From: Allohoeflea poritis | GTDB lineage: Bacteria; Pseudomonadota; Alphaproteobacteria; Rhizobiales; Rhizobiaceae | Assembly (NCBI RefSeq): GCF_027889715.1 | Contig: NZ_JAPJZH010000008.1 | Span: forward strand, 186,001 to 250,000 | Length of the DNA stretch: 64,000 nt | Direction: 5' to 3' | Part shown: positions 6,951-18,853 of the stretch, piece after piece | Layout: each line of letters opens with the position of its first letter | Numbering within the stretch: position 1 is the first letter of the stretch | The notes under the pieces: model-generated | Told to the model about the DNA's origin: nothing | Seen by the model: only the letters and a program-made list of their open reading frames with translations | Databases searched by the model: none | Program-made: the position numbers and the translations under genes

Positions 6951-6968
6951 CGGCTTTCAGCCGTTTTT
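6951..6968 (+). terminator. Intrinsic terminator of the OmpA-like gene, overlapping the end of the ACP gene
   Basis: CGGCT (6951-6955), loop TTC, AGCCG (6959-6963) and TTTTT (6964-6968) form a short G+C stem with a T run on the plus strand, 14 bases after the OmpA-like stop. The convergent ACP gene ends inside the stem: its TGA stop occupies 6957-6959. No T run exists for the minus strand. Confidence 0.6.
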
Positions 6969-7211
6969 CGTCACATAACCGGCGATCAGATTAATCGTGC
7001 CGAAATTCTCGATGGTCAGGTCATCGTCGGGAATGGATATTCCGTAGGTCTGCTCCAGCCACATGATCAGTTCCATGGTGGCTGCCGAATCCAGAATGTC
7101 GAGCTGCGGGATGAAATCATCGTCGCCGAGACCGTCCGCCTTGTTGCCGAGCGATTCCGCGAGCGCGGTGATCTTGTCGCGGATTTGCTGTCGTGCCGTA
7201 TCCGGGTCCAT
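6957..7211 (-). CDS. Acyl carrier protein
   Basis: An 84-residue stand-alone carrier protein. The D-S-x motif DILDSAATMEL contains Ser42, the expected 4'-phosphopantetheine attachment site, at the start of helix II; the helix MELIMWLEQTYGI and the acidic DDDL-T segment complete the ACP fold. It lies 14 bases downstream of the divergent E2 gene and is the last gene of the methyltransferase-E1-E2-ACP operon. It is not the housekeeping fatty-acid ACP, because no fab genes are nearby and the DSAATME helix is atypical. The likely job is to carry an acyl group supplied by E1/E2; that is inferred from context only. Confidence 0.85.
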   Translation of the reverse strand: MDPDTARQQIRDKITALAESLGNKADGLGDDDFIPQLDILDSAATMELIMWLEQTYGISIPDDDLTIENFGTINLIAGYVTKNG

Positions 7212-7225
7212 GGGTTCATATGTTC

Positions 7226-8344
7226 CTATTTTGAAGTGATTTCTTTGTCGTCCGGCGACGTCAGGTGGTTGAGCGCCTGGAAGGCGGCGGCTCCGTCGAG
7301 CACCCGGTGATCATAGGTCGCGCCGAGGATCGAACGGCCATCTTGCGGCGCGCTGTGCGCGACCATCAGCGAAACGAAGGGCGGCAGGATCGGCATGTGC
7401 CGCAGCACCGGCCAGCGCGCCATGCTGGAGATCGCGATCGTCGCGCCTTTCATATCTGCCGGCTGCAGCTTGCCGCGCATCGCCGAACGGTGGAGGCCGG
7501 CAAAGGCATCGACGAATTCCCTGGCATTCATGCCATCCGCCTCGTGGATGACCGGAAGGAACAGCTTTCCGCCGATATGGACGGTAAAGCCGAGATTGAC
7601 GCGGTCATAGACGAATTTGCGGCCGTTATGGACCGTGCTGTTGAGATCCGGATTATCCGATGCGTGCCGGACAAGCTGATAGGCCATCAGCGGCACCAGC
7701 GGACTGCTCAACAGTCCGTGCCGGTCCCGGAACCCCTGAGCAAAGGCCTGCCAGTCGGCCTCGTCATAGGCGGCTTCAAGATAGGTGGCGGCAGCTTCAT
7801 GAGCGTGCCATGAAACAGAATGGAGCATCGCCGCCTCATAGGCGCTGAATTCCGTGCTCTTCCCGCCGGCATCCGGCGCTCCGAATTGCGGAGCGGGGGG
7901 CCTTTCCGGTTCGGCAGGCGGCGCGTTCCCGGAAAGGAAGGCTTCGACATCCGATACTTTCAGGCGGGCGCCGGCGGCGGGAATGTCAACGGCGGAAAGC
8001 CCGTGTTTGCCGATCAGAGCCAGCGCGCCGGCCGTCGGCCGGTCGGTGCCGGCTTGTCCATCCACGGATTGCGGCGCAGGATCATTCTGCGGCACGGTCT
8101 CATCCGGCGTTTCGCCAAGCCAAAGAAGCACGGCGCCGACATCGAGCATTTGGCCCTGCGTGCCCGAAGTTTCGATAACGAATCCGTCCTCTTCCGCTTC
8201 CACGACGACCGTCGCTTTTTCGGACTCGACTTCCGCCACCGCCTGACCGGATTTCACTGCCTCGCCCGGCGAAACCAGAAAGGCGATGAGCTTGACCTCG
8301 TCGTCATTGTTGTTGATGCGCGGCACGTGGATCGGACGGGGCAT
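7226..8344 (-). CDS. 2-oxoacid dehydrogenase E2-like lipoyl acyltransferase (divergent)
   Basis: 372 residues with three parts. A lipoyl domain (about 1-77) has lipoyl lysine K43 in ESEKATVVVEA. A peripheral-subunit-binding-like segment follows at about 115-150 (LIGKHGLSAVDIPAAGARLKVSDVEAFL). A shortened catalytic domain ends in the diagnostic DHRVLDG (H346). The usual S-N-L-G-x-x-G segment is replaced by ISSMARWPVLRHMP, so the active-site surface is unusual. The start is ATG 8344, seven bases after the E1 stop; an in-frame upstream extension to 8377 would overlap E1 and is not needed. Canonical E2s transfer acyl groups from lipoyl to CoA. Here an ACP gene follows directly, so transfer to ACP is a reasonable but unproven alternative. 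Confidence 0.85.
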   Translation of the reverse strand: MPRPIHVPRINNNDDEVKLIAFLVSPGEAVKSGQAVAEVESEKATVVVEAEEDGFVIETSGTQGQMLDVGAVLLWLGETPDETVPQNDPAPQSVDGQAGTDRPTAGALALIGKHGLSAVDIPAAGARLKVSDVEAFLSGNAPPAEPERPPAPQFGAPDAGGKSTEFSAYEAAMLHSVSWHAHEAAATYLEAAYDEADWQAFAQGFRDRHGLLSSPLVPLMAYQLVRHASDNPDLNSTVHNGRKFVYDRVNLGFTVHIGGKLFLPVIHEADGMNAREFVDAFAGLHRSAMRGKLQPADMKGATIAISSMARWPVLRHMPILPPFVSLMVAHSAPQDGRSILGATYDHRVLDGAAAFQALNHLTSPDDKEITSK

Positions 8345-8351
8345 GGCGGGC

Positions 8352-10346
8352 TCAGAACATTTCCAGGATTTCAGCAATCAGCCGGTCGCGGTCCGGCAGG
8401 ACCTGCTCTTCCAGCGAGCGTGCCGACGGGATCGGCACCGGGGGCGGGCCGACGCGCAGGATATGGCCGTCAAAGCCGGCTTCGGCAAGGCTTGCCGCGA
8501 TCTCCGCGCCGACCCCGAATTCCGTCGGAGATTCCTCGGCAAGGACGATGCGCGGCCGGTCCGACAGCGCCGCGATCAGCGTGTTGCGCGGCAGCGGTGC
8601 GATCAGCGAAGGAAGAATGATCTCGACCGAGAGTTCCTCCTCGCGCTCCAGCTCTTCCGCGACCACTTCGACCAGGGGCGCCATACCGCCATAGGCAATA
8701 ATCGTGATGTCGGGTTCGTCCCTGCCATTTTGGAGCGTTGGAAAGAGGCCTGCCGCCGGATCGGAGGCGTGCGCCGCCAGCGCTTTGTAGCCATCCGGTT
8801 CGTTCGGTCGGCTATAGAGCAGCTTGTGCTCGAAAAAGACCGTCGGATGGTCCCAGTTCAGCACGGCGTTCTCCAGAAGCCCGCCCGCATCGTGCCGGTG
8901 GCTGCCATAGATCACGGTCAGGCCCGGCACGGAGGCGCAAAGGCTCTCCGGCGTCTGGCTGTGGGTCGCGCCATAGCCGCGTCCGCCGCCGCAGGCCGCG
9001 CGGATCACCAGCGGCACCGTCACCTCATCGAAGAGCGGCGGGAACTTGACCGCGTGATTGTAGATCTGGTCCATGCCGAGGCTCAGGAAATCGGCAAACA
9101 TGATCTCCACAATCGGCCGCTTGCCTGCCATGGCAAGACCGATCCCGGCGCCGACAATGCCGGCCTCGCTGATCGGGGTCGACAGGACACGGTCGGGATA
9201 GGCTGTTGTCAGACGCTCCGAGACCTTGAACGCGCCGCCATAGGGATCGTGCAGATCCTCGCCGAGCAGGATAACCTCGGGACTTTGCTCGAGCATACGG
9301 TGTAGCGCCGCGTTGAGCGCCTGACGCACCGTTCCGCCAACTTGCACGGTCTTTGCCTGAACCGGCTGATTGGGACCAAACGGGTGCAGCGGCACTTCGT
9401 CGAACTGCGCCGGCGGCGACTGCATCGCCTCATCGACGGCCGCTTTCAGAAAGTCGGCGTTGCTTTTCTCGATCGCCTGCCGCTCGGCATCCGGCAGGCG
9501 TTCTCCCAGCCGTGTCAGAGGATCGCGGGCCCGGATCGCGTCCATTTCCTCGCTGCCGCGCAGATCATCGCCCTTGCTGTGCGGCCCGAGCCGCATCGTG
9601 TCAATGACAAGGAAGCCGGGTGAACCCGTTTTCCTGACGGCGTCCACCGCCGCTTCGGCCCGCTCGAAAAAATCCGGTGCATCGTCGCTGACGCGCCATG
9701 TTTGAATCCCGAAAGCCTCGCCTCGCGCGGTCAGCGATCCGGCTGTCGTCATGTCGGTGGGCGTGGTCTGCGCGATGCTGTTGTTTTCGACCACGAAAAG
9801 CACCGGGACATCCCAGACACCCGCCAGGTTGAGCGATTCATAGACAAGCCCCTGCCCCAGCGTGCCGTCTCCGATGATCACCGCGACAATACCGCCGGCG
9901 CCATCCTGTTTTCGGGCCAGGGCCTCGCCCACCGCAATGGCCGTCATGCCGCCCTGAACGCCGCTGCTGTGAAAACCACGGTATGCCAGGTGCTGGCTGC
10001 CGCCATGTCCGCCGCACACGCCCGCCTCACGTCCCATGATTTCCGCGAAGAGACCCGCGAAATCGCCACTATAGGTGAGAAAATGCCCGTGATTGCGATG
10101 GTTTGAGAATATGGCGTCCCTGTCATGGTTGAGCGCCCGCACGACACCCATCTGGCAAAGTTCCTGGCCGAGGCAGGTATGGGTCGTGCCGGAAAGCTGG
10201 CCCTTGCTGAAAAGATCGAGCAGCGTTTCCTCGGAGCCGCGTATCAGATGTCCGAAGCCGTAGAGCGCCGCAGGGTCAAGCGGCAATTCCGGTTTCGACC
10301 TGCCGTCGAACCCGGGCCGCGTCTCAGCCGTCGGTTCAGATACCAT
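8352..10346 (-). CDS. Fused alpha-beta 2-oxoacid dehydrogenase E1 (thiamine-diphosphate enzyme)
   Basis: A 664-residue single-chain E1. The N-terminal half (about 1-320) is the alpha part, with THTCLGQE, NHRNHGHFL and the thiamine-diphosphate motif GDG...ENN (GDGTLGQGLVYESLNLAG to VVENNSIAQ). The C-terminal half (about 330-664) is the beta part: GEDLHDPYGGAFKVS, STPISEAGIVGAGIG, EIMFADFLSLGMDQIYN. Two-chain E1s are the rule in Alphaproteobacteria; fused forms occur in some branched-chain or acetoin-type enzymes. It decarboxylates a 2-oxo acid and loads the acyl group on the lipoyl arm of the next gene's product. It overlaps the methyltransferase stop by 11 bases. No E3 (dihydrolipoamide dehydrogenase) is in the window. 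Confidence 0.9.
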   Translation of the reverse strand: MVSEPTAETRPGFDGRSKPELPLDPAALYGFGHLIRGSEETLLDLFSKGQLSGTTHTCLGQELCQMGVVRALNHDRDAIFSNHRNHGHFLTYSGDFAGLFAEIMGREAGVCGGHGGSQHLAYRGFHSSGVQGGMTAIAVGEALARKQDGAGGIVAVIIGDGTLGQGLVYESLNLAGVWDVPVLFVVENNSIAQTTPTDMTTAGSLTARGEAFGIQTWRVSDDAPDFFERAEAAVDAVRKTGSPGFLVIDTMRLGPHSKGDDLRGSEEMDAIRARDPLTRLGERLPDAERQAIEKSNADFLKAAVDEAMQSPPAQFDEVPLHPFGPNQPVQAKTVQVGGTVRQALNAALHRMLEQSPEVILLGEDLHDPYGGAFKVSERLTTAYPDRVLSTPISEAGIVGAGIGLAMAGKRPIVEIMFADFLSLGMDQIYNHAVKFPPLFDEVTVPLVIRAACGGGRGYGATHSQTPESLCASVPGLTVIYGSHRHDAGGLLENAVLNWDHPTVFFEHKLLYSRPNEPDGYKALAAHASDPAAGLFPTLQNGRDEPDITIIAYGGMAPLVEVVAEELEREEELSVEIILPSLIAPLPRNTLIAALSDRPRIVLAEESPTEFGVGAEIAASLAEAGFDGHILRVGPPPVPIPSARSLEEQVLPDRDRLIAEILEMF

Positions 10347-11328
10347 GTCCGACCACCATGGCGGTCACTTCGGGCGGATTGTCATCGCCCGCCCGGCTCG
10401 GATGCCGCACCGTCAGATGCGCATGCACCGAAAGCCCGCCATCCTCCACCAGCCGCAGCAGTTCTTCCTCGCTGCGAAACAGGAAGATATGGTCGGGCTG
10501 CGGCGCATTGATCGCGCCGGTCAGGAAGGCGAGCCCGCCCGGTTCGAGACTGTCCCGGATCCGGCCGACCAGAGCCTTCGGGTCCGGCACATGCTCAAGA
10601 AGCTCCCCGCAGATAATGCGGCTTGCCTTTGGCAGATCCGGTGCGGCCAGAACGTCTTCAAGTCGCGTTTCGACCCGGGCGCCCGCCCCGCTGGCTCCGA
10701 GGACAGCCTTGCTGAAATCGAGGCTCTGCGGGCTGAGATCGATCAACAGGGATGGGCTGTTCGTCCACCGGCCAAGCGCCTCGACGCTGAGCAGTCCGTG
10801 GCCCGGCCCCCATTCCATGACGAGGCCTTGCGGATCATGTGGTGGCGCCAGGAATGCGTCCCGGTAAAACCGCAGCAATTGGTAGTGATGCGGCCACAGG
10901 AAATAGGTGCAGTAGAGCCCGACGAGATAATAGCCCTCCATAACGTCCGGATTGCTGTAGAAATCGTCCTTAAGCGACTGAAGTTCCTCGACACCTGCCG
11001 AGTATTGCCCGGTCTGCTTAAAGGCCACTTCCTCGCGCAGGATAGTGCTGCCGAGGCGCTGGAAGCCGCGCACGGCCCAGCTCGGAAACGCATTCTCCGG
11101 GAACGCTTTTTTCAGCAAATCGAGGCTGCGCTCGAAGTCGGCAAGATAGCCGTCGCCATAGTCCGCGCGCAGACCCTCGACAGCCGAGGCCGACGCGCCG
11201 AAAAGCGTCTTGTTCAGGCCATCCTGGAGCGCCGATACCAGCGGATACGAACCGGTCTTCAGGTCGTGCTTCATGTCGCGTGCAATCGATCCGTTTGCTG
11301 GTTCGGGATTGGTTGGACGGGATATCAT
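10336..11328 (-). CDS. Class I SAM-dependent methyltransferase
   Basis: About 330 residues. The SAM-binding motif I is VMEWGPGHGLLS, followed by an acidic strand end (SLLIDLSPQ), GELLEHVPDPKAL and a post-motif LEPGGLAFLTGA, all typical of class I methyltransferases. The N-terminal about 140 residues form a separate helical region of unknown function. The start is uncertain: TTG 11346, ATG 11328 and ATG 11274 are all in frame, and the GAGGGA before 11328 sits very close to the ATG. It is the first gene of the operon with E1, E2 and ACP, overlapping E1 by 11 bases, so its substrate may be the intermediate those proteins make. Methyl acceptor unknown. Confidence 0.82.
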   Translation of the reverse strand: MISRPTNPEPANGSIARDMKHDLKTGSYPLVSALQDGLNKTLFGASASAVEGLRADYGDGYLADFERSLDLLKKAFPENAFPSWAVRGFQRLGSTILREEVAFKQTGQYSAGVEELQSLKDDFYSNPDVMEGYYLVGLYCTYFLWPHHYQLLRFYRDAFLAPPHDPQGLVMEWGPGHGLLSVEALGRWTNSPSLLIDLSPQSLDFSKAVLGASGAGARVETRLEDVLAAPDLPKASRIICGELLEHVPDPKALVGRIRDSLEPGGLAFLTGAINAPQPDHIFLFRSEEELLRLVEDGGLSVHAHLTVRHPSRAGDDNPPEVTAMVVGHGI

Positions 11329-11384
11329 TCCCTCTGTAAAACGCAAAATAGGCGAATTGGTTTGAAACCGAAAGGCATAATCGG

Positions 11385-12437
11385 ATGGTCGAAATTCGAA
11401 CTTATGACGGCGACGGAAGCGACTTTGCCGAACTGTGTCTGCGCATACGCAAGCAGGAGGGCGAAGAGGAAAAATGGTCGCCGCTGTGGGATGCCGCCTA
11501 TCTGCGCCGCCAGATCGAGGCTCCGGCCGCCGACCGTGAATTGATGGTGGGCGCCTATGACGGCGAACGCCTTATCGGCTCCTTCTTTGCCGTTCCCTAC
11601 ATGTTCGATGTGCGCGGCGAGACGTTGGCCGGAACCTTCTCGACCTGCCTCATGATCGATCCCGCCTTTCGAGGGCTGACGCCCTATGTGATCGAGAAAC
11701 TGCGGCGGCGCCACCGCGACAATGGCTACGCTTTCTCGCTTGGCTTCGTCATGGGTGGCCCGAATTCCGGTCCCCATCAATGCTGGACGGGCTACGCGAA
11801 GGCCTATCCGAAGAATTTCCAGTTCATAACGGATGCCGGCTACTGGATCCGGGCCTTCGATCCGTCCGTGCTCGACGAAGCCGGTCGCGCCGAACAGGCC
11901 CGCGCAAACGCTGAACTTGGCGCGCGGCTGCAAAGCGGCGCCGATGCAGCGCCTGCCGGTATCGGGGTCAGGGCCTGTCGCCACGACGATCTCGGTGACT
12001 GTCTGGAACTGCTGAAAGCACAAAACGCACGGGCGGACTGGTCGATCCGCTGGGACCGCGACAGTCTGGGCCAATACCTGATCGGATCGGGCAAGACGGA
12101 TGCGCTGGTCGCCGAGCGCAACGGTTCCGTCGCCGGCGTGATCGGCCTGCACTGGCTCTCCGTGTGGAACGAAAGGGAAATACGCGGTGTCGTCATTGAC
12201 ATGCTGGCTGCCGGGGACGATCTGATCCGGCGCCACTTGCTTCAGGAGGCCTGCACACGGGCGCGGCAGGAAGGCGCGCAGGTCGCGACGGCACTGCGGT
12301 CGTCCATGTTCCGCGCACGCACCGTCATTCCGTCCGGCTTCCTGCCGGCGCCCGATCCCGGACGCCTGGTCGTATTGTTTGCCGATGAATCCATCGAAGC
12401 GTCAGCCTCCGACAGCTTCGAGCTGATGCTGCGCTGA
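11385..12437 (+). CDS. GNAT-fold acyltransferase, probably tandem-domain
   Basis: A 350-residue protein with GNAT features in both halves: LMVGAYDGERLIGSFFAVP, a beta-4 strand with a LMIDPAFRGLTPYVIEKLRRR acyl-CoA loop (R/Q-x-x-G-x variant), then a second region with DALVAERNGSVAGVIGLHWL and VVIDMLAAGDDLIRRHLLQEACTRAR. It is transcribed divergently from the methyltransferase gene and convergently with the aminotransferase gene (5 bases between ends), so it sits in the middle of the biosynthetic block. It may acylate an amine produced by the aminotransferase, drawing on acyl-ACP or acyl-CoA; this is inference. The GNAT assignment rests on overall pattern and is moderately sure. Confidence 0.7.
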   Translation: MVEIRTYDGDGSDFAELCLRIRKQEGEEEKWSPLWDAAYLRRQIEAPAADRELMVGAYDGERLIGSFFAVPYMFDVRGETLAGTFSTCLMIDPAFRGLTPYVIEKLRRRHRDNGYAFSLGFVMGGPNSGPHQCWTGYAKAYPKNFQFITDAGYWIRAFDPSVLDEAGRAEQARANAELGARLQSGADAAPAGIGVRACRHDDLGDCLELLKAQNARADWSIRWDRDSLGQYLIGSGKTDALVAERNGSVAGVIGLHWLSVWNEREIRGVVIDMLAAGDDLIRRHLLQEACTRARQEGAQVATALRSSMFRARTVIPSGFLPAPDPGRLVVLFADESIEASASDSFELMLR

Positions 12438-12442
12438 CGTGA

Positions 12443-13804
12443 TCAGATCCAGTTCGGAACTCTTGAAAGAATTCGCTTAAGGCCTGAAAAAGCCTCATCA
12501 AAATGCGAGTCCTCGAGAATGAAGGGCGGCAGCATCAGGATCCGGCTGCCGGCGATATGCACCCATAGGCCACGCGCGAAACAGGCCTTGGCCACCATAT
12601 CCATGGCTTCGGCGTCAAGCTGCTCGCGTCCGGCCGGATCGCGCACCAGATCGATCGCGAAGAGCATGCCGATGCCGCGCACATTGTCGACGACCTGCAG
12701 TTCCTTCAGTTCCTGGAGCCGCTCGAGAAACGCTTCACCCCGTGCCGCCGCATCGGCAATCAGATTGTCCCGCGTCAATATGTCGATGGCCGCGAGACCG
12801 GCCGCGCAGGCACCCGGATGGCCGGCATTGGTCGAGCCGTGGTTGAACCGCATGGCGTCCGTATCGGAAAGAAAAGCCTCCCAGATCTCATCGGTGGCAA
12901 CCGCCGCGCCCAGCGGGAAATAGCCTCCGCTGATCGCCTTGCCTAGGCACATGACATCGGGATCGAGATTGAACCGTTCCGAGGCGAACAGCGTCCCGGT
13001 GCGGCCGAAGCCCGTCGTCACCTCGTCGACCACCAGCTTGATGTCGTGGCGCTTGCAGGTCTCACTGATGATGTCGAAATAGGCCTGCCCCGGCACGATG
13101 GCGCCGCCCATGCCCTGCACCGGTTCGAGGATGAACATGGCGACCGTTTCAGGGCCTTCGGCGACAATGGCCTTTTCGAGCTGTTCGGCGCAGGCAATTT
13201 CGAAGGCTTCCCGCTCCGCCTCGGTCTGGCTGTCGCGATTAAACGGCTGCGCGATCTTCACGAAACCCGCCGGCATCGGCCCGAAGCCCTGCTGGTCGTC
13301 CGCAAATCCGGACGCCGCCAGTGCGCCGTAGGAAACGCCGTGATAGGCGTTCTCCAGCGAGATCACCTTGTATTTCCCCGAGCCCTTCCGGTGGAAGTAC
13401 TGGCGCACCATCTTGATGGCCGATTCCACCGACTCCGAACCGTTGGAAGTCAGAAAGACGCGGTTGAGGCGCTTCGGCGCGATCTCCGCTACCTTGCGGG
13501 CAAGATCGATCGCCGGTCGGTGCGCCGTGCGGAACAACGCCGCGAAACTCAGTTCGTTGAGCTGCTTGTGAACCGCCTCGATGATGTCCTGTCGGCCAAG
13601 GCCGAGCGGCGCATTCCACAGGCATGATGTCAGGTTCAGATAGCGCTTGTCGTTCTGGTCGTAGAGATACGGTCCCTCGCCACGTTCCACGACAATGTTC
13701 TGCGCGCCGAGAATCTTCTGCATCTGGCTGAACGGATGCCACAGGTGATAGTCCTCGCCGGCAGGGGCTTCCTGTTCGACGCTCTGCTGTTCGGATAGGC
13801 TCAT
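12443..13804 (-). CDS. Class III PLP aminotransferase (omega-transaminase-like)
   Basis: 453 residues of fold-type I, class III. The PLP lysine is K289 in CLGKAISGGY, the PLP-binding aspartate is D260 in VVDEVTTGFGR, and TSNGSESVE supplies the phosphate-binding turn. The N-terminal WHPFSQM resembles BioA and omega-transaminases. Such enzymes move an amino group between pyruvate or glutamate and terminal amines, beta-amino acids or polyamines. It overlaps the upstream SDR gene by 4 bases (ATGA), so the two form an operon. Two contexts compete: amine formation in the E1-E2-ACP block, or polyamine catabolism with the potFGHI importer 1 kb away. Confidence 0.9.
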   Translation of the reverse strand: MSLSEQQSVEQEAPAGEDYHLWHPFSQMQKILGAQNIVVERGEGPYLYDQNDKRYLNLTSCLWNAPLGLGRQDIIEAVHKQLNELSFAALFRTAHRPAIDLARKVAEIAPKRLNRVFLTSNGSESVESAIKMVRQYFHRKGSGKYKVISLENAYHGVSYGALAASGFADDQQGFGPMPAGFVKIAQPFNRDSQTEAEREAFEIACAEQLEKAIVAEGPETVAMFILEPVQGMGGAIVPGQAYFDIISETCKRHDIKLVVDEVTTGFGRTGTLFASERFNLDPDVMCLGKAISGGYFPLGAAVATDEIWEAFLSDTDAMRFNHGSTNAGHPGACAAGLAAIDILTRDNLIADAAARGEAFLERLQELKELQVVDNVRGIGMLFAIDLVRDPAGREQLDAEAMDMVAKACFARGLWVHIAGSRILMLPPFILEDSHFDEAFSGLKRILSRVPNWI

Positions 13805-14586
13805 GACTGCTGTTTCTCCGATGACACCATGGGAAGCGGAATGGTCCGGGTCCAGCCGAGCGGCAGTGTGCTGCCGGTGATCCAGCCGGCATCGCTGGAG
13901 GCCAGGAAGGCAACCGCGTTGGCGATGTCGTGGCGCGAGCCGGTGCCGAGCGGATGGCAGGCATTCACCTGGTCCCAGGCTTCCTGCGTGAAGTCTTTTG
14001 CGAAATCATGCAGCATCGGCGTATGGGCGAGCGCCGGCGCGATGCACACCGCGCGGATCTTCTTCGGCGCGACTTCCAGCGCCAGCGAATTGGTCAGCGC
14101 GATCACCGCCGCCTTGCTGGCACCGTAGGCCGCGTTCCCCGCGCAGGCATTTTCGGCCAGCACCGAAGCGATATTGACGATCACACCGCCCGGCGACGTC
14201 ATATGCGGCAACGCGGCGCGCGAAACACGGACCGTGCCTTTTACATTGACGTCGAAGGTAAAATCCCACTGTTCGTCGGTCAGATCCTCGAACAGGCCGA
14301 AACAGCTGACCCCGGCACAATTGACAACCGTGTCGATGCGGCCGAATTCCGAGACGGTCTCCGCAACCATGTTGTTGACGAAACCCGCATCCGTAATGTC
14401 GCCTTCATGCCAGCGAACCGATGCGCCGCGCCGCTCGAGCCGGCCGAGCAGACGTGACGGAGCGACCCGGTCCGTCAGCACCAGCGTTGCGCCCTCCTCG
14501 GCAAATTTTTCGGCAATGGCACCGCCGAAGCCGCGATCATTTGCGCCAGTCACCAGTACGATTGAATTCTCGAAACGTTGCGACAT
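13801..14586 (-). CDS. Short-chain dehydrogenase/reductase
   Basis: 261 residues of classical SDR. The cofactor motif is TGANDRGFG (about 13-21), the structural N-C-A-G lies at 89-92, and the catalytic residues are S141 in NIASV, Y154 and K158 in YGASK. Acidic or basic residues after beta-2 do not decide NAD from NADP (TDR suggests NAD). It is the first gene of an operon with the class III aminotransferase, and the two may oxidise an alcohol to a ketone or aldehyde and then aminate it. The gene is divergent from potF across a 285-base region. Confidence 0.9.
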   Translation of the reverse strand: MSQRFENSIVLVTGANDRGFGGAIAEKFAEEGATLVLTDRVAPSRLLGRLERRGASVRWHEGDITDAGFVNNMVAETVSEFGRIDTVVNCAGVSCFGLFEDLTDEQWDFTFDVNVKGTVRVSRAALPHMTSPGGVIVNIASVLAENACAGNAAYGASKAAVIALTNSLALEVAPKKIRAVCIAPALAHTPMLHDFAKDFTQEAWDQVNACHPLGTGSRHDIANAVAFLASSDAGWITGSTLPLGWTRTIPLPMVSSEKQQS

Positions 14587-14871: not shown

Positions 14872-15957
14872 ATGAAACTGATAAGATTTGCTCTCGCATT
14901 TTCTCTGACATTGTCCGCCGGTATGGCGATGGCCGAGGAAGTGCGTGTCTATAACTGGTCCGACTATATCGACGAGGAACTCCTGAAGAAGTTCGAAGAC
15001 GAGACGGGCGTCAAGCTGATCTACGACGTCTTCGATTCCAACGATGTGCTTGAAACCAAGCTGTTGGCCGGCAGCTCCGGCTATGATGTCGTGGTGCCCT
15101 CGGCCAGCTTCCTGCAGCGCCAGATACAGGCCGGCGTCTTCCAGCCGCTTGACCAGGAGAAACTTCCGAACAGCAAGAACCTGTGGGATCTGATCAAGCA
15201 GCGCACCGCACCCTACGACCCCGACAATGCCTATTCGGTCAACTACATGTGGGGCACCACCGGCATCGGCGTCAATGTCGACAAGGTCAGGGAAGCGCTC
15301 GGCGACGATGCGCCCATCGACTCGCTGGAGCTCGTCTTCAACCCGAAATACATGGAAAAACTCGCCGCCTGCGGCGTCCATTTCCTCGATGCCTCGGCGG
15401 AGATGATCCCGGCCGCACTCACCTATATCGGCGAAGATCCCAAAACGCAGGACACCGATATCATCGCCAAGACGGAACCTGTTCTGATGGCGGTGCGGCC
15501 CTATGTGACCAAGTTCCACAGCTCCGAATACATCAATGCGCTGGCCAATGGCGACATCTGCGTCGCATTCGGCTATTCGGGCGACATATTGCAGGCGCGC
15601 GACCGCGCCGACGAGGCCGAAAACGGCGTCACCATCGCATACAACGCGCCGAAGGAAGGCGCCGTGATGTGGTTTGACCAGATGGCGATCCCTGCCGATG
15701 CGCCCAATCCGGACGCCGCGCACAAGTTCCTCAACTTCATGATGGATCCCGAAAACATGGCCGCCGCCTCGAACTATGTCTATTACGCGAACGGCAATCT
15801 GGCCTCACAGGAATTCCTGGAAGAGGACGTCATCACCGATACGGCGATCTACCCGAACGAAGAGACGCTGAAGTCGCTCTATACGACGATCGCCTGGGTC
15901 CCGCGCACCCAGCGATACGTGACGCGGCTCTGGACCAAGATCAAGTCCGGCACCTGA
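14872..15957 (+). CDS. potF: Putrescine/spermidine ABC importer, periplasmic binding protein
   Basis: 361 residues: a cleavable signal (MKLIRFALAF to AMAMA) and a PotD/PotF-type binding domain beginning EVRVYNWSDYIDEELLKKFE. The N-W-S-D-Y-I segment and the GYSGDILQARDRA and WFDQMAIPADAPN blocks are hallmarks of polyamine receptors of the PotF branch. It delivers putrescine or a related diamine to the membrane permeases encoded next. It is the first gene of potFGHI; no clear promoter could be assigned in the 285-base upstream region. Substrate within the polyamine group is inferred. Confidence 0.92.
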   Translation: MKLIRFALAFSLTLSAGMAMAEEVRVYNWSDYIDEELLKKFEDETGVKLIYDVFDSNDVLETKLLAGSSGYDVVVPSASFLQRQIQAGVFQPLDQEKLPNSKNLWDLIKQRTAPYDPDNAYSVNYMWGTTGIGVNVDKVREALGDDAPIDSLELVFNPKYMEKLAACGVHFLDASAEMIPAALTYIGEDPKTQDTDIIAKTEPVLMAVRPYVTKFHSSEYINALANGDICVAFGYSGDILQARDRADEAENGVTIAYNAPKEGAVMWFDQMAIPADAPNPDAAHKFLNFMMDPENMAAASNYVYYANGNLASQEFLEEDVITDTAIYPNEETLKSLYTTIAWVPRTQRYVTRLWTKIKSGT

Positions 15958-15997
15958 CCGGATTTTCGCCGGAAGGACGCGTGCTCATGCGGGGGAC

Positions 15998-17140
15998 ATG
16001 ATGCAACAGACGGCAAATGGCTGCGGCTTTGCGCCCTGGCAGGATCCGAACGAGGAACCGCTCATCCGCTTTGAGGGGGTGACCAAGAAGTTCGGCGAAT
16101 TCACCGCGGTCGACCGGCTGGATGTCGACATCTTCAAGGGTGAGTTCTTCGCCCTTCTCGGCCCCTCGGGCTGCGGCAAGACCACCCTGATGCGGATGCT
16201 GGCCGGTTTCGAGAAGCCGACCGAGGGCCGCATCCTGCTTGACGGGCGCGATATCGGCCCCGTCCCGCCAAACAAGCGCGCCGTCAACATGATGTTCCAG
16301 TCCTACGCCCTGTTTCCGCATTTGAGCGTCGCCGAGAACATCGCTTTCGGCTTGAAACGATCCGACATGCCGAAGACAGAGATACCGGGCCGCGTCGACG
16401 AGATGCTGGGTCTTGTCCAGCTCAGGGAATTCGCCGGCCGCAAGCCGCACCAGATCTCCGGCGGCCAGCGCCAGCGTGTCGCCCTCGCCCGGGCGCTCGC
16501 CAAGGCCCCGAAGCTGCTGCTTCTGGACGAGCCGCTCGGTGCGCTCGACAAGAAACTGCGCCAGCAGACGCAGTTCGAACTGGTCGACATCCAGGAAAAG
16601 ACCGGAACCACCTTCGTCATCGTCACCCACGACCAGGAGGAAGCGATGACCGTGGCGACCCGGGTCGCGGTCATGGATCACGGGCGGCTGATCCAGGTGG
16701 ATACGCCCGACCGCATCTACGAGATGCCCAACTCGGTCTACGTCGCCGACTTCATCGGCGACGTCAATCTGATCGAGGGCAATGTCGCATCGACCGAAGG
16801 CGAGCGCGTCGAGATAAGCTGGGCGGAAGGACAGCCGCTGATCGTCGGCTCTTCCGCCTCCCCGCTTGCGGCGGGGACCCGCTGCTCCTTCGCCATCCGG
16901 CCCGAAAAGGTGGCGATTTCGGCCGAACGGCCGCCCGATGCCGTCAACGCGATAAGCGGCAACATCCACGACATCGCCTATCTCGGAAACATCTCGACCT
17001 ATCACGTGCGGCTCGATACCGGCCATATTGTCAAGGCGCAGACCGCGAACAGCAGGCGAATCGGGCGGCGCGATTTTACCTGGGAGGACGCGGTCTGGCT
17101 GTCCTTTACCGACACCGCCGGGATCGTGCTGACGGGATGA
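15998..17140 (+). CDS. potG: Polyamine ABC importer ATP-binding protein
   Basis: 380 residues. The Walker A GPSGCGKTT, the Q-loop FQSYALFP, the signature ISGGQRQRVALARALA, Walker B LLLLDEPLGALD and the switch H in VTHDQEEA are all intact. A TOBE regulatory domain (about 290-375) follows. Two consecutive ATG codons (15998 and 16001) leave the first residue open. It energises import through the two permeases immediately downstream. Confidence 0.93.
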   Translation: MMQQTANGCGFAPWQDPNEEPLIRFEGVTKKFGEFTAVDRLDVDIFKGEFFALLGPSGCGKTTLMRMLAGFEKPTEGRILLDGRDIGPVPPNKRAVNMMFQSYALFPHLSVAENIAFGLKRSDMPKTEIPGRVDEMLGLVQLREFAGRKPHQISGGQRQRVALARALAKAPKLLLLDEPLGALDKKLRQQTQFELVDIQEKTGTTFVIVTHDQEEAMTVATRVAVMDHGRLIQVDTPDRIYEMPNSVYVADFIGDVNLIEGNVASTEGERVEISWAEGQPLIVGSSASPLAAGTRCSFAIRPEKVAISAERPPDAVNAISGNIHDIAYLGNISTYHVRLDTGHIVKAQTANSRRIGRRDFTWEDAVWLSFTDTAGIVLTG

Positions 17141-17144
17141 ACGG

Positions 17145-18041
17145 ATGAACCTGCGCCGCCTGATACTGATCGCCATCCCCTATCTGTGGCTGCTGCTGTT
17201 CTTCCTCATTCCCTTCGGCATCGTCCTGAAGATCTCGCTGTCGGAGACGGCGATCGCTATCCCGCCCTATACGCCGACGCTCGATCTTTCCGCCGGCTGG
17301 CAGGGTTTCACCGCTTACTTAAGCGAACTCGATTTCGACAATTTCAGCTTCCTCGCCGAGGACGATCTTTACTGGAAGGCTTTTCTTTCAAGCCTGACGA
17401 TCAGCGTTGTCTCGACATTGCTGACGCTCGCGGTCGGCTTTCCCATCGCCTACGGCATGGCCAACGCGCCGGAGGAATGGCGGCCGAGCCTCATGGTGCT
17501 CGTCATCCTGCCCTTCTGGACCAGCTTTCTCATCCGGGTCTACGCATGGATGGGCATCTTGAGTCAGGGCGGACTGCTCAACCAGTTCCTCATATGGACC
17601 GGCCTGATCGACACGCCGCTGACGATCCTCAACACCAACACCGCCGTCTATATCGGCATCGTCTACACCTATCTGCCCTTCATGGTGCTGCCGATCTACG
17701 CGACACTGGAAAAGCTCGACAATTCATTGCTCGAGGCGGCGGAAGATCTCGGTTGTTCGCGCATCCAGGCTTTCTGGCTTGTCACCGCGCCGCTCTCGCG
17801 TCCGGGCGTGATCGCCGGCTGTTTCCTGGTCTTTATCCCGGTGCTTGGCGAATTCGTCATACCGTCGCTGCTCGGCGGATCGGGGACGCTGATGATCGGC
17901 AAGGTGCTGTGGGAGGAGTTCTTCACCAATCGCGACTGGCCCGTCGCCTCGGCCGTGGCGGTGGTGCTGCTCCTCATCCTGATCATTCCGATCACGCTCT
18001 TCCAGCGCAACCAGCAGGCCCAAAGGGAGGCGGACGAATGA
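17145..18041 (+). CDS. potH: Polyamine ABC importer permease 1
   Basis: A 298-residue inner-membrane protein with six predicted helices. The EAA loop LEAAEDLGCSRIQAFWLVTAPLSRPGV contacts the ATPase. It matches the PotB/PotH family. The gene starts four bases after the potG stop and its TGA overlaps the potI ATG (ATGA), so the subunits are translationally coupled. Confidence 0.92.
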   Translation: MNLRRLILIAIPYLWLLLFFLIPFGIVLKISLSETAIAIPPYTPTLDLSAGWQGFTAYLSELDFDNFSFLAEDDLYWKAFLSSLTISVVSTLLTLAVGFPIAYGMANAPEEWRPSLMVLVILPFWTSFLIRVYAWMGILSQGGLLNQFLIWTGLIDTPLTILNTNTAVYIGIVYTYLPFMVLPIYATLEKLDNSLLEAAEDLGCSRIQAFWLVTAPLSRPGVIAGCFLVFIPVLGEFVIPSLLGGSGTLMIGKVLWEEFFTNRDWPVASAVAVVLLLILIIPITLFQRNQQAQREADE

Positions 18042-18853
18042 GACGCCTGACCTGGTTCAACGTCACCGCGCTGACGCTCGGCTTTGCCTTCCTCTACATC
18101 CCGATCGTCATCCTCGTCATCTACAGTTTCAACGCCTCGAAACTGGTGACGGTCTGGGCAGGATTTTCAACCAAGTGGTATTTCGAGCTGATGCGCAACG
18201 AGGCGTTCCTCAATGCCGCCTGGGTGACGCTCAAGGTCGCGCTCGCTTCCTCGACGGCGGCCACCGTGCTGGGAACCATGGCCGCCTATGTCATGGTGCG
18301 CGGCGGGCGCTTCTTCGGGCGCACGCTGTTTTCCGGCATGATCTACGCGCCGCTCGTCATGCCGGAGGTGATCACCGGCCTGTCGCTGCTGTTGCTGTTC
18401 ATCGCCGTCGGCCTCGAACGCGGCGTGTTCACCGTTGTCCTTGCCCACACCACCTTTTCCATGTGCTTCGTCTCGATCGTCGTCTCTTCGCGGCTTGCCA
18501 CCTTCGACCGGTCCATCGAGGAAGCCGCGCTTGATCTCGGCTGCACACCCTTCGATGCCTTCCGCAGCGTCACGCTGCCCATTATCGCGCCGGCCGTGAT
18601 CTCCGGCTGGTTGCTTGCCTTCACACTGTCTCTCGACGATCTCGTCATCGCTTCCTTCACCACCGGGCCCGCATCGACAACCCTGCCGATCAGGATCTTC
18701 AGCTCCATCCGGCTGGGTGTCAGCCCCGAGATCAACGCGCTTTCGACGATCCTGATCGCTCTGGTCACCATCGGCGTCATCACGGCATCGCTGGTCTCGA
18801 AACGGGCCATCATGCGCCAGCGGGCGGAAGAGCAACGCGCCGCCGCGACTTGA
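18038..18853 (+). CDS. potI: Polyamine ABC importer permease 2
   Basis: 271 residues and six membrane helices. The EAA-loop region is IEEAALDLGCTPFDAFRSVTLPI, and LSLDDLVIASF is the typical PotC/PotI segment. The true start is ATG 18038, overlapping the potH stop; the frame is open far upstream, but that is antisense-like shadow within potH. It pairs with PotH to form the channel and ends the operon; an inverted repeat lies 44 bases downstream. Confidence 0.92.
   Translation: MRRLTWFNVTALTLGFAFLYIPIVILVIYSFNASKLVTVWAGFSTKWYFELMRNEAFLNAAWVTLKVALASSTAATVLGTMAAYVMVRGGRFFGRTLFSGMIYAPLVMPEVITGLSLLLLFIAVGLERGVFTVVLAHTTFSMCFVSIVVSSRLATFDRSIEEAALDLGCTPFDAFRSVTLPIIAPAVISGWLLAFTLSLDDLVIASFTTGPASTTLPIRIFSSIRLGVSPEINALSTILIALVTIGVITASLVSKRAIMRQRAEEQRAAAT

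Follow-up and report, generated by a model that had tools for sequence, protein, structure and literature searches.

A conserved E1-E2-ACP-methyltransferase cassette with a divergent GNAT gene in Allohoeflea poritis as a candidate source of a carrier-bound acyl donor

The window analyzed here, a 64,000-nucleotide stretch of an Allohoeflea poritis contig (NZ_JAPJZH010000008.1), carries seven linked genes for a methyltransferase (MT), a single-chain thiamine diphosphate (ThDP)-dependent E1, a lipoyl acyltransferase (E2), a stand-alone acyl carrier protein (ACP), a GNAT-family acyltransferase, a class III aminotransferase (AT), and a short-chain dehydrogenase/reductase (SDR). The block falls into two parts, namely, a cassette consisting of MT-E1-E2-ACP with the divergent GNAT gene, and the SDR-AT pair. 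The best reading as a whole, which we put forward tentatively, is that MT-E1-E2-ACP would build an acyl donor and that GNAT would be its transferase.

We infer every chemical step and product of the following scheme. A ketose phosphate or hydroxypyruvate would supply a two-carbon unit, which E1 would take up by means of ThDP and place on the lipoyl arm of E2; E2 would then pass it on to the ACP phosphopantetheine rather than to coenzyme A (CoA), and the lipoyl group would be reoxidized by a shared E3. MT would O-methylate the 2-hydroxyl of the ACP-bound group, and GNAT would transfer the group, as a hydroxyacyl or methoxyacyl, onto a primary amine. This amine may be made by SDR and AT from an alcohol or aldehyde, which is the weakest link in the scheme.

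Layout and conservation of the block

All seven genes recur in identical order and orientation in Nitratireductor sp. XY-223, with 76 to 94% amino acid identity, and the ratios of nonsynonymous to synonymous substitutions (dN/dS) between the two genomes are 0.06 to 0.18, indicating purifying selection. Since order and orientation are retained with dN/dS values in this range, the block is more than a chance arrangement. MT and E1 overlap by 11 bases, gaps of 7 and 14 bases separate E1 from E2 and E2 from ACP, respectively, and SDR and AT overlap by 4 bases (Table 1); the gene positions, the 11-base overlap, and the two gaps are as a first-pass annotation of the window had given them. The MT open reading frame (ORF) spans 10336-11346, and the ATG at 11274 agrees with the XY-223 relative. 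GNAT lies between SDR-AT and MT-E1-E2-ACP on the strand opposite to the other six genes, which the first-pass annotation had not mentioned, so the block is not a seven-gene operon.

The MT/GNAT spacer is identical to that of XY-223 at 99 of 110 aligned columns, compared with 62 to 65% identity at the third codon positions of E1 and MT. Because it is conserved far beyond third codon positions, this spacer is probably a shared control region; no sigma-70-like site was found in the spacer region. No ketosynthase, condensation, adenylation, thioesterase, or E3 domain was detected in the seven proteins (Pfam, E values up to 0.01), as the first-pass annotation had claimed for all but the condensation domain, and the seven proteins include no nonribosomal peptide synthetase (NRPS) or polyketide synthase (PKS) line of the kind encoded alongside QncN/QncL/QncM-type systems. 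E3-like genes were recognized by eye at two places elsewhere in the genome, no family search of them having been made.

Table 1. Features of the seven-gene block and its neighbor. Positions are those of the whole 64,000-nucleotide stretch; features are from the ORF list and a Pfam search (E values up to 0.01).
Feature	Position	Strand	Basis
ACP, stand-alone, 84 aa	6957..7211	-	PF00550 E 1.1e-8, above cutoff
E2-like lipoyl acyltransferase	7226..8344	-	PF00364 and PF00198 above cutoff; ATG 8344
Single-chain ThDP-dependent E1, alpha and beta fused	8352..10346	-	PF00676, PF02779, PF02780
Class I S-adenosylmethionine (SAM) methyltransferase (MT), N-terminal extension	10336..11274	-	PF13489/PF08242 above cutoff
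Divergent MT/GNAT spacer, 110 bases	11275..11384	.	Alignment with XY-223
GNAT-family acyltransferase, probably two domains	11385..12437	+	PF13527 E 7.9e-5, below curated cutoff; sole Pfam match
Class III aminotransferase (AT), amine:pyruvate type	12443..13804	-	PF00202 E 8.5e-98
SDR oxidoreductase	13801..14586	-	PF13561 E 1.9e-57
Putrescine/spermidine-type ABC transporter, four genes, neighbor outside the cassette	14872..18853	+	Named by eye

Probable loading of the ACP by E1 and E2

E1 and E2 very probably load the ACP. The first-pass proposal that they serve the ACP rather than CoA is supported by the company of E1 in a phylogenetic tree and by the occurrence of E1, E2, and ACP together in distant genomes. 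In a maximum likelihood tree of 34 E1 rows, one side held 12 rows: the window, XY-223, a Bryobacterales E1, RenH, an E1 from a Streptantibioticus PKS cluster, and seven Pseudomonadota E1s. The other 22 rows were the genome's own E1s, read as pyruvate dehydrogenase (PDH), branched-chain 2-oxo acid dehydrogenase (BCKDH), and Aco type, together with 19 of the 26 E1 matches from other genomes of the bacterial family (L018, L021, L023, L025, L026, L028, and L032 were left out). The split was supported at 100/100 and placed the window E1 outside the dehydrogenase clade; branched-chain catabolism was rejected as the role of E1/E2 on this tree.

The residues that we take to be catalytic are kept in E1 (His, the ThDP motif, Glu, and His, with the window signature HSKGDD) and in E2 (the His of DHRVLDG), and the lipoyl Lys is present in 10 of 10 aligned E2 rows. 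The Lys of HSK(G/S)DD occurs in all 12 clade rows versus 2 of the 22 others (counted from printed rows), and the 12 rows have further residues in common that are absent or rare among the 22. As in QncN/QncL/QncM-type systems, a lipoyl E2 with its catalytic His adjoins a stand-alone ACP. The phosphopantetheine site of the ACP reads DSA, and the protein is 90% identical to that of XY-223, 48% to that of a Bryobacterales metagenome-assembled genome (MAG), and 47% to that of G599.

An ordinary catabolic 2-oxo acid dehydrogenase acting on CoA, with the ACP being incidental, would likewise keep its catalytic residues, and the best NCBIfam matches are PDH subunits, although all 12 models listed fall below their own cutoffs (for example, TIGR03182 at 185.1 of 393.85 bits and NF006667 at 176.5 of 321 bits). 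Given the clade placement and signatures of E1, the conservation of an ACP beside E2 across phyla, and the further E1 sets elsewhere in the genome, we regard such a role as very improbable. E1 was also considered as a sugar two-carbon branching enzyme, a function given for AviB1/AviB2 and Pau11/Pau12 in excerpts of PMC4425429; the linkage of E2 and ACP to it here makes this role less likely.

A phylum search detected E1 at E values of 1e-103 or better in 8 of 398 genomes, its own included. The Bryobacterales (Acidobacteriota) MAG has E1, E2, and ACP in line, at 61, 45, and 48% identity, on a contig that stops just upstream of E1. MT-bearing E1-E2-ACP sets are present in four distant Pseudomonadota. 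G670 and G680 have the order E1-E2-MT-ACP, followed by a GNAT-like gene (below the Pfam cutoff) and a gene without a Pfam match, and G674 has the same set with E1 truncated at the contig start. The set of G599 lies on two contigs, one ending in the N-terminal half of E1 (56% over 306 amino acids) and the second carrying the C-terminal part of E1, E2, ACP, and MT at 54, 41, 47, and 46%. In G610, E1-E2 is followed by a 266-amino-acid protein (L045, 12593-13393) that ends in a 4'-phosphopantetheinyl transferase domain (PF01648) and whose N terminus looks ACP-like by eye, Pfam detecting only the transferase.

The renieramycin plasmid of "Ca. Endohaliclona" encodes a named single-chain counterpart: RenH is 40% identical to the window E1, falls in the same clade (100/100), and overlaps the E2 gene after it. 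That E2, RenI, is only 20% identical to the window E2, and the plasmid stretch examined yielded no match to the window ACP or MT and no GNAT match better than an E value of 2.5. The renieramycin pathway is presumably an NRPS pathway, and we take RenH to function in it.

Loading of a carrier protein by E1/E2 is already known. QncN/QncL/QncM (quinocarcin), NapB/C/D (naphthyridinomycin), and SclQ1-4 (scleric acid) appear in excerpts of the literature as glycolyl-ACP systems (PMC6335953; PMC7570522), and a glycolyl group from E1/E2 is proposed there for the Qnc and Scl systems (PMC6335953). By these descriptions, they resemble the window in the set of a ThDP E1, a lipoyl E2, and a stand-alone ACP, the carrier that receives a short acyl group in those systems. 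They differ in having a separate E1 ThDP part and an E1 pyrimidine part fused to E2 (QncL), whereas the window has a one-chain E1 and a lone E2; their unit also enters a nonribosomal peptide, whereas the window block has no NRPS/PKS gene and has a linked MT and GNAT. In the pepteridine system (Photorhabdus plu2792-2799, E1/E2-T-C), the proposal is that E1/E2 acylate a carrier, from which the acyl group goes on to a free acceptor in amide linkage, and that E3 comes from the host; its acyl groups are, in contrast, proposed to come from 2-oxo acids, a C domain transfers them, and the excerpted text mentions no MT or GNAT (PMC5384830). The first-pass statement that no named pathway has this gene set was therefore half right, since carrier loading by E1/E2 has been described for these four products. 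No description of an E1-E2-ACP-MT-GNAT set was found among the matches listed in open-licence literature, which is weak evidence of absence. The novelty lies in a cassette that has an MT and a GNAT of its own, in a block devoid of assembly-line genes.

On the Streptantibioticus plasmid pSCAT (L035, 10563-14967), a beta-ketoacyl-ACP synthase III (KASIII) gene (Pfam), an ACP-like frame (by eye), split E1 alpha and beta genes, and E2 adjoin a large PKS-like gene (by eye); the plasmid collection carries no annotation there.

The methyltransferase family and the acyl group

Homologs of the window MT in G670 and G680 (28 to 30% over 284 to 307 amino acids) and in G599 (46% over 298 amino acids) each adjoin an ACP. 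When an MT profile was searched against 48 genomes of the class of G670, 14 matches were obtained in 11 genomes; neighbors were examined for 13 of these, the context in G708 (L092) amounting to 2,289 bases. A PF00550 ACP lies within 5 kb of nine matches (0.23 expected), FkbH lies within 5 kb of six (0.1 expected), and five stand beside E1 and/or E2, with the contig of G697 having only the E2 end. The only two plasmid homologs at an E value of 1e-10, from Tistrella and Paroceanicella, are both in ACP-FkbH-MT sets (FkbH by TIGR01686).

In methoxymalonyl-ACP pathways (FkbG-K type), as described in excerpts of PMC7489565 and PMC3679948, FkbH produces glyceryl-ACP, and an O-methyltransferase modifies the product while it is on the ACP. 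A dedicated ACP, a maker of hydroxyacyl-ACP, and an O-methyltransferase would be common to both systems. They differ in that the maker there is FkbH, followed by two oxidations, whereas in the window E1/E2 would replace FkbH and Pfam detects no such dehydrogenase domain in the block; the seven window proteins also include no FkbH-type glyceryl-ACP maker (Pfam, NCBIfam). The MT family accompanies either of two kinds of acyl-ACP maker, and as the product of one kind is a hydroxyacyl group, the analogy suggests that MT works on 2-hydroxyacyl-ACP. With such a substrate, a glycolyl group from E1/E2 would fit better than a branched-chain acyl group. We consider it probable that the acyl group is a 2-hydroxyacyl group, most likely glycolyl, and are slightly inclined to the view that MT methylates it on the ACP.

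These observations bear on the first-pass interpretation, in which a branched-chain or other nonhydroxylated 2-oxo acid would give a plain acyl group on the ACP, AT would make the amine that receives it, and MT would methylate the amine or the product. Its use of the ACP by E1/E2 and, in relatives, its amine logic have gained support, and its branched-chain source has not, because an MT family common to FkbH/ACP loci points to a hydroxyacyl group. Carrier loading by E1/E2 from 2-oxo acids does have proposed precedents (excerpts of PMC5384830, and Craig and Brady as cited there), and the seven-gene block is conserved in XY-223. Nevertheless, E1 groups with RenH and the E1 of the PKS cluster and not with the BCKDH and PDH E1s of its own genome, and SDR-AT exists without the cassette, so that we judge the plain-acyl version as it stands to be improbable.

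BioC, a malonyl-ACP methyltransferase, matched the MT relative of G670 weakly (26.5 of 184.95 bits) and was not among the matches of the window MT. AlphaFold models built from two-row alignments had mean pLDDT values of 40.7 for GNAT and 40.5 for MT and were set aside. G599 has another clade E1, which starts ~110 bases after an FkbH domain; at this locus (L047, 7369-11420), an ACP-like frame (by eye), FkbH (TIGR01686), and the clade E1 are in line, so that two acyl-ACP makers adjoin. At L101, L102, L103, L104, L106, L110, and L111, which are from Pseudomonadota and two alphaproteobacterial plasmids, the MT family lies near FkbH, often with an ACP and an MBOAT gene (partly by eye), and these loci perhaps provide O-methylglyceryl-type acyl groups for surface glycans.

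The acyl acceptor and the SDR-aminotransferase pair

GNAT is likely to transfer the acyl group to an amine. The contexts of relatives favor such a transfer by analogy, which is not proof for the window, and the first-pass proposal of ACP-to-amine transfer gains partial support from them. The only two plasmid relatives of the window GNAT at an E value of 1e-5 are from Deinococcus (27 to 29% identity, 94 to 95% coverage); they are annotated as GNAT and lie in PKS/NRPS clusters whose order on both plasmids is thioester reductase, class III aminotransferase, GNAT, radical SAM, KASIII, and ACP. The aminotransferase of these clusters, which is in two pieces in KNUC1210, is only distantly related to AT (23 to 24%). 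In G920, the gene beside E1 encodes a fusion of a lipoyl domain and a PglD-type hexapeptide acyltransferase (PF00364, PF17836, and PF00132; L051, 7820-8926), and the cluster also has PseB, PseC, and a DegT aminotransferase; this fusion would possibly let the lipoyl arm acylate an amino sugar directly, neither ACP nor CoA being involved. The E1 of G803 lies beside a polysaccharide deacetylase (PF01522), a dihydrolipoyl dehydrogenase (TIGR01350, above cutoff), a UDP-GlcNAc 2-epimerase, and a NeuB-family gene. In G599, E1 is preceded by a PIG-L deacetylase gene, which agrees with an amine acceptor, and by a gene of the GNAT-like family, which is weakly supported there and has no Pfam match of its own.

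The company of NeuB, UDP-GlcNAc 2-epimerase, PseB/PseC, polysaccharide deacetylase, PIG-L, or MBOAT genes around E1 or MT relatives would also suit an acyl-ACP that feeds a surface glycan, as an O- or N-acyl group on a polysaccharide, with the acceptor genes lying elsewhere in the genome. Since Pfam finds no glycan gene in the seven-gene block (the wider window being only partly annotated), we consider this unlikely for the window.

The block is followed by an OmpA-type gene, and as much as 20 kb around this gene was compared across eight genomes of the genus. SDR-AT and the cassette occur together in two of them, namely, the genome of the window and G932, which shows the same identities as XY-223. 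In G085, SDR (83%) and AT (81%) lie directly beside the OmpA-type gene, with a polyamine-type ABC transporter on the other side; this stretch has no GNAT, MT, E1, E2, or ACP, and no E1 was detected genome-wide at an E value of 1e-80 or better. The remaining five have neither part in the stretch. SDR-AT is therefore separable from GNAT/MT-E1-E2-ACP. The linkage that the first-pass annotation expected in relatives holds for all seven genes in XY-223, where SDR is 94% identical, whereas G085 speaks against SDR and AT being integral.

Accordingly, the two parts could be unrelated neighbors, SDR-AT and the Pot-type transporter serving polyamine or amine catabolism while the cassette and GNAT acylate some other acceptor. 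The arrangement in G085 and the five congeners, the presence of polyamine:pyruvate transaminases, alongside class III transaminases, among the nearest solved chains to AT, and the opposite orientation of GNAT, set off by a conserved divergent spacer of its own, are all in keeping with this idea. The transporter adjoins SDR-AT in the window and in G085 (L063, 5287-9254; 79 to 88% identical). In XY-223, however, SDR-AT accompanies the cassette without having the transporter next to it, and an aminotransferase, albeit a distant one, recurs with GNAT and ACP in Deinococcus. Moreover, G085 is by identity farther from the window and XY-223 than these two are from each other, so that one gain of the cassette on their line is as costly as one loss in G085. 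We rate unrelated neighbors as rather unlikely, and it is possible but doubtful that the local AT makes the amine that GNAT would acylate. Close homologs of AT were found in 2 of 199 genomes of the family (its own and G085, E = 1e-140), in 1 of 327 of the class (its own, E = 1e-150), and in none of 72,556 plasmids at an E value of 1e-100, and AT is too rare for its co-occurrence to serve as a pathway marker.

Several observations weigh against the proposal that MT-E1-E2-ACP builds an acyl donor for GNAT, beginning with the retention of SDR-AT without the cassette in G085. The rows of the E1 clade were selected by similarity to the window E1, so that their grouping is expected in part by construction; within the clade, only the position of RenH is informative on function, and that function is itself our assumption. 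Several rows of the tree are on long branches, and it contains no QncN, NapB, or SclQ sequences. Five of the 14 MT matches have no PF00550 ACP within 5 kb, and three have neither FkbH nor E1/E2 (G684, G708 with its short context, and G670 C10, whose MT has an ACP 142 bases away). FkbH-linked MTs score lower than E1/E2-linked ones (115 to 148 versus 286 to 555 bits). Finally, the GNAT-like proteins of G670, G680, and G599 reach no Pfam cutoff and are not detectably related to the window GNAT (hhalign probability, 0.6%), leaving its orthology to them unsupported.

A broader view, which we offer as a speculation less likely to be right than wrong, is that the E1 clade represents a general CoA-independent route to unusual N-acyl groups. 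A two-carbon unit of central sugar metabolism would be taken up by a ThDP/lipoyl pair and passed via an ACP (window, G599, and G670 type) or a lipoyl-acyltransferase fusion (G920 type) to an amine from an aminotransferase or deacetylase, and the MT family would be a 2-hydroxyacyl-ACP O-methyltransferase, giving a methoxyacetyl-type amide. If this is true, E1/E2 carrier loading, which we found described only in NRPS/PKS-type and pepteridine pathways, would also operate apart from assembly lines, as a donor of acyl groups to amines and amino sugars, and a specific role would fall to a methyltransferase family that has had no known function. It would also provide a rule for genome mining, namely, that an HSK(G/S)DD E1 adjoining an ACP probably serves biosynthesis and that the label of pyruvate dehydrogenase should be withheld from it.

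Genes of 333 amino acids in G670/G680 and 309 amino acids in the Bryobacterales MAG resemble polysaccharide deacetylases by eye; we claim no deacetylase role for either, as neither has a Pfam match even at an E value of 5. The deacetylases supported by Pfam are PIG-L in G599 and Polysacc_deac_1 in G803. In G599, a 520-amino-acid gene upstream of the GNAT-like gene and E1 (L052, 6543-8105) combines a weak N-terminal methyltransferase match with a C-terminal PIG-L deacetylase domain.

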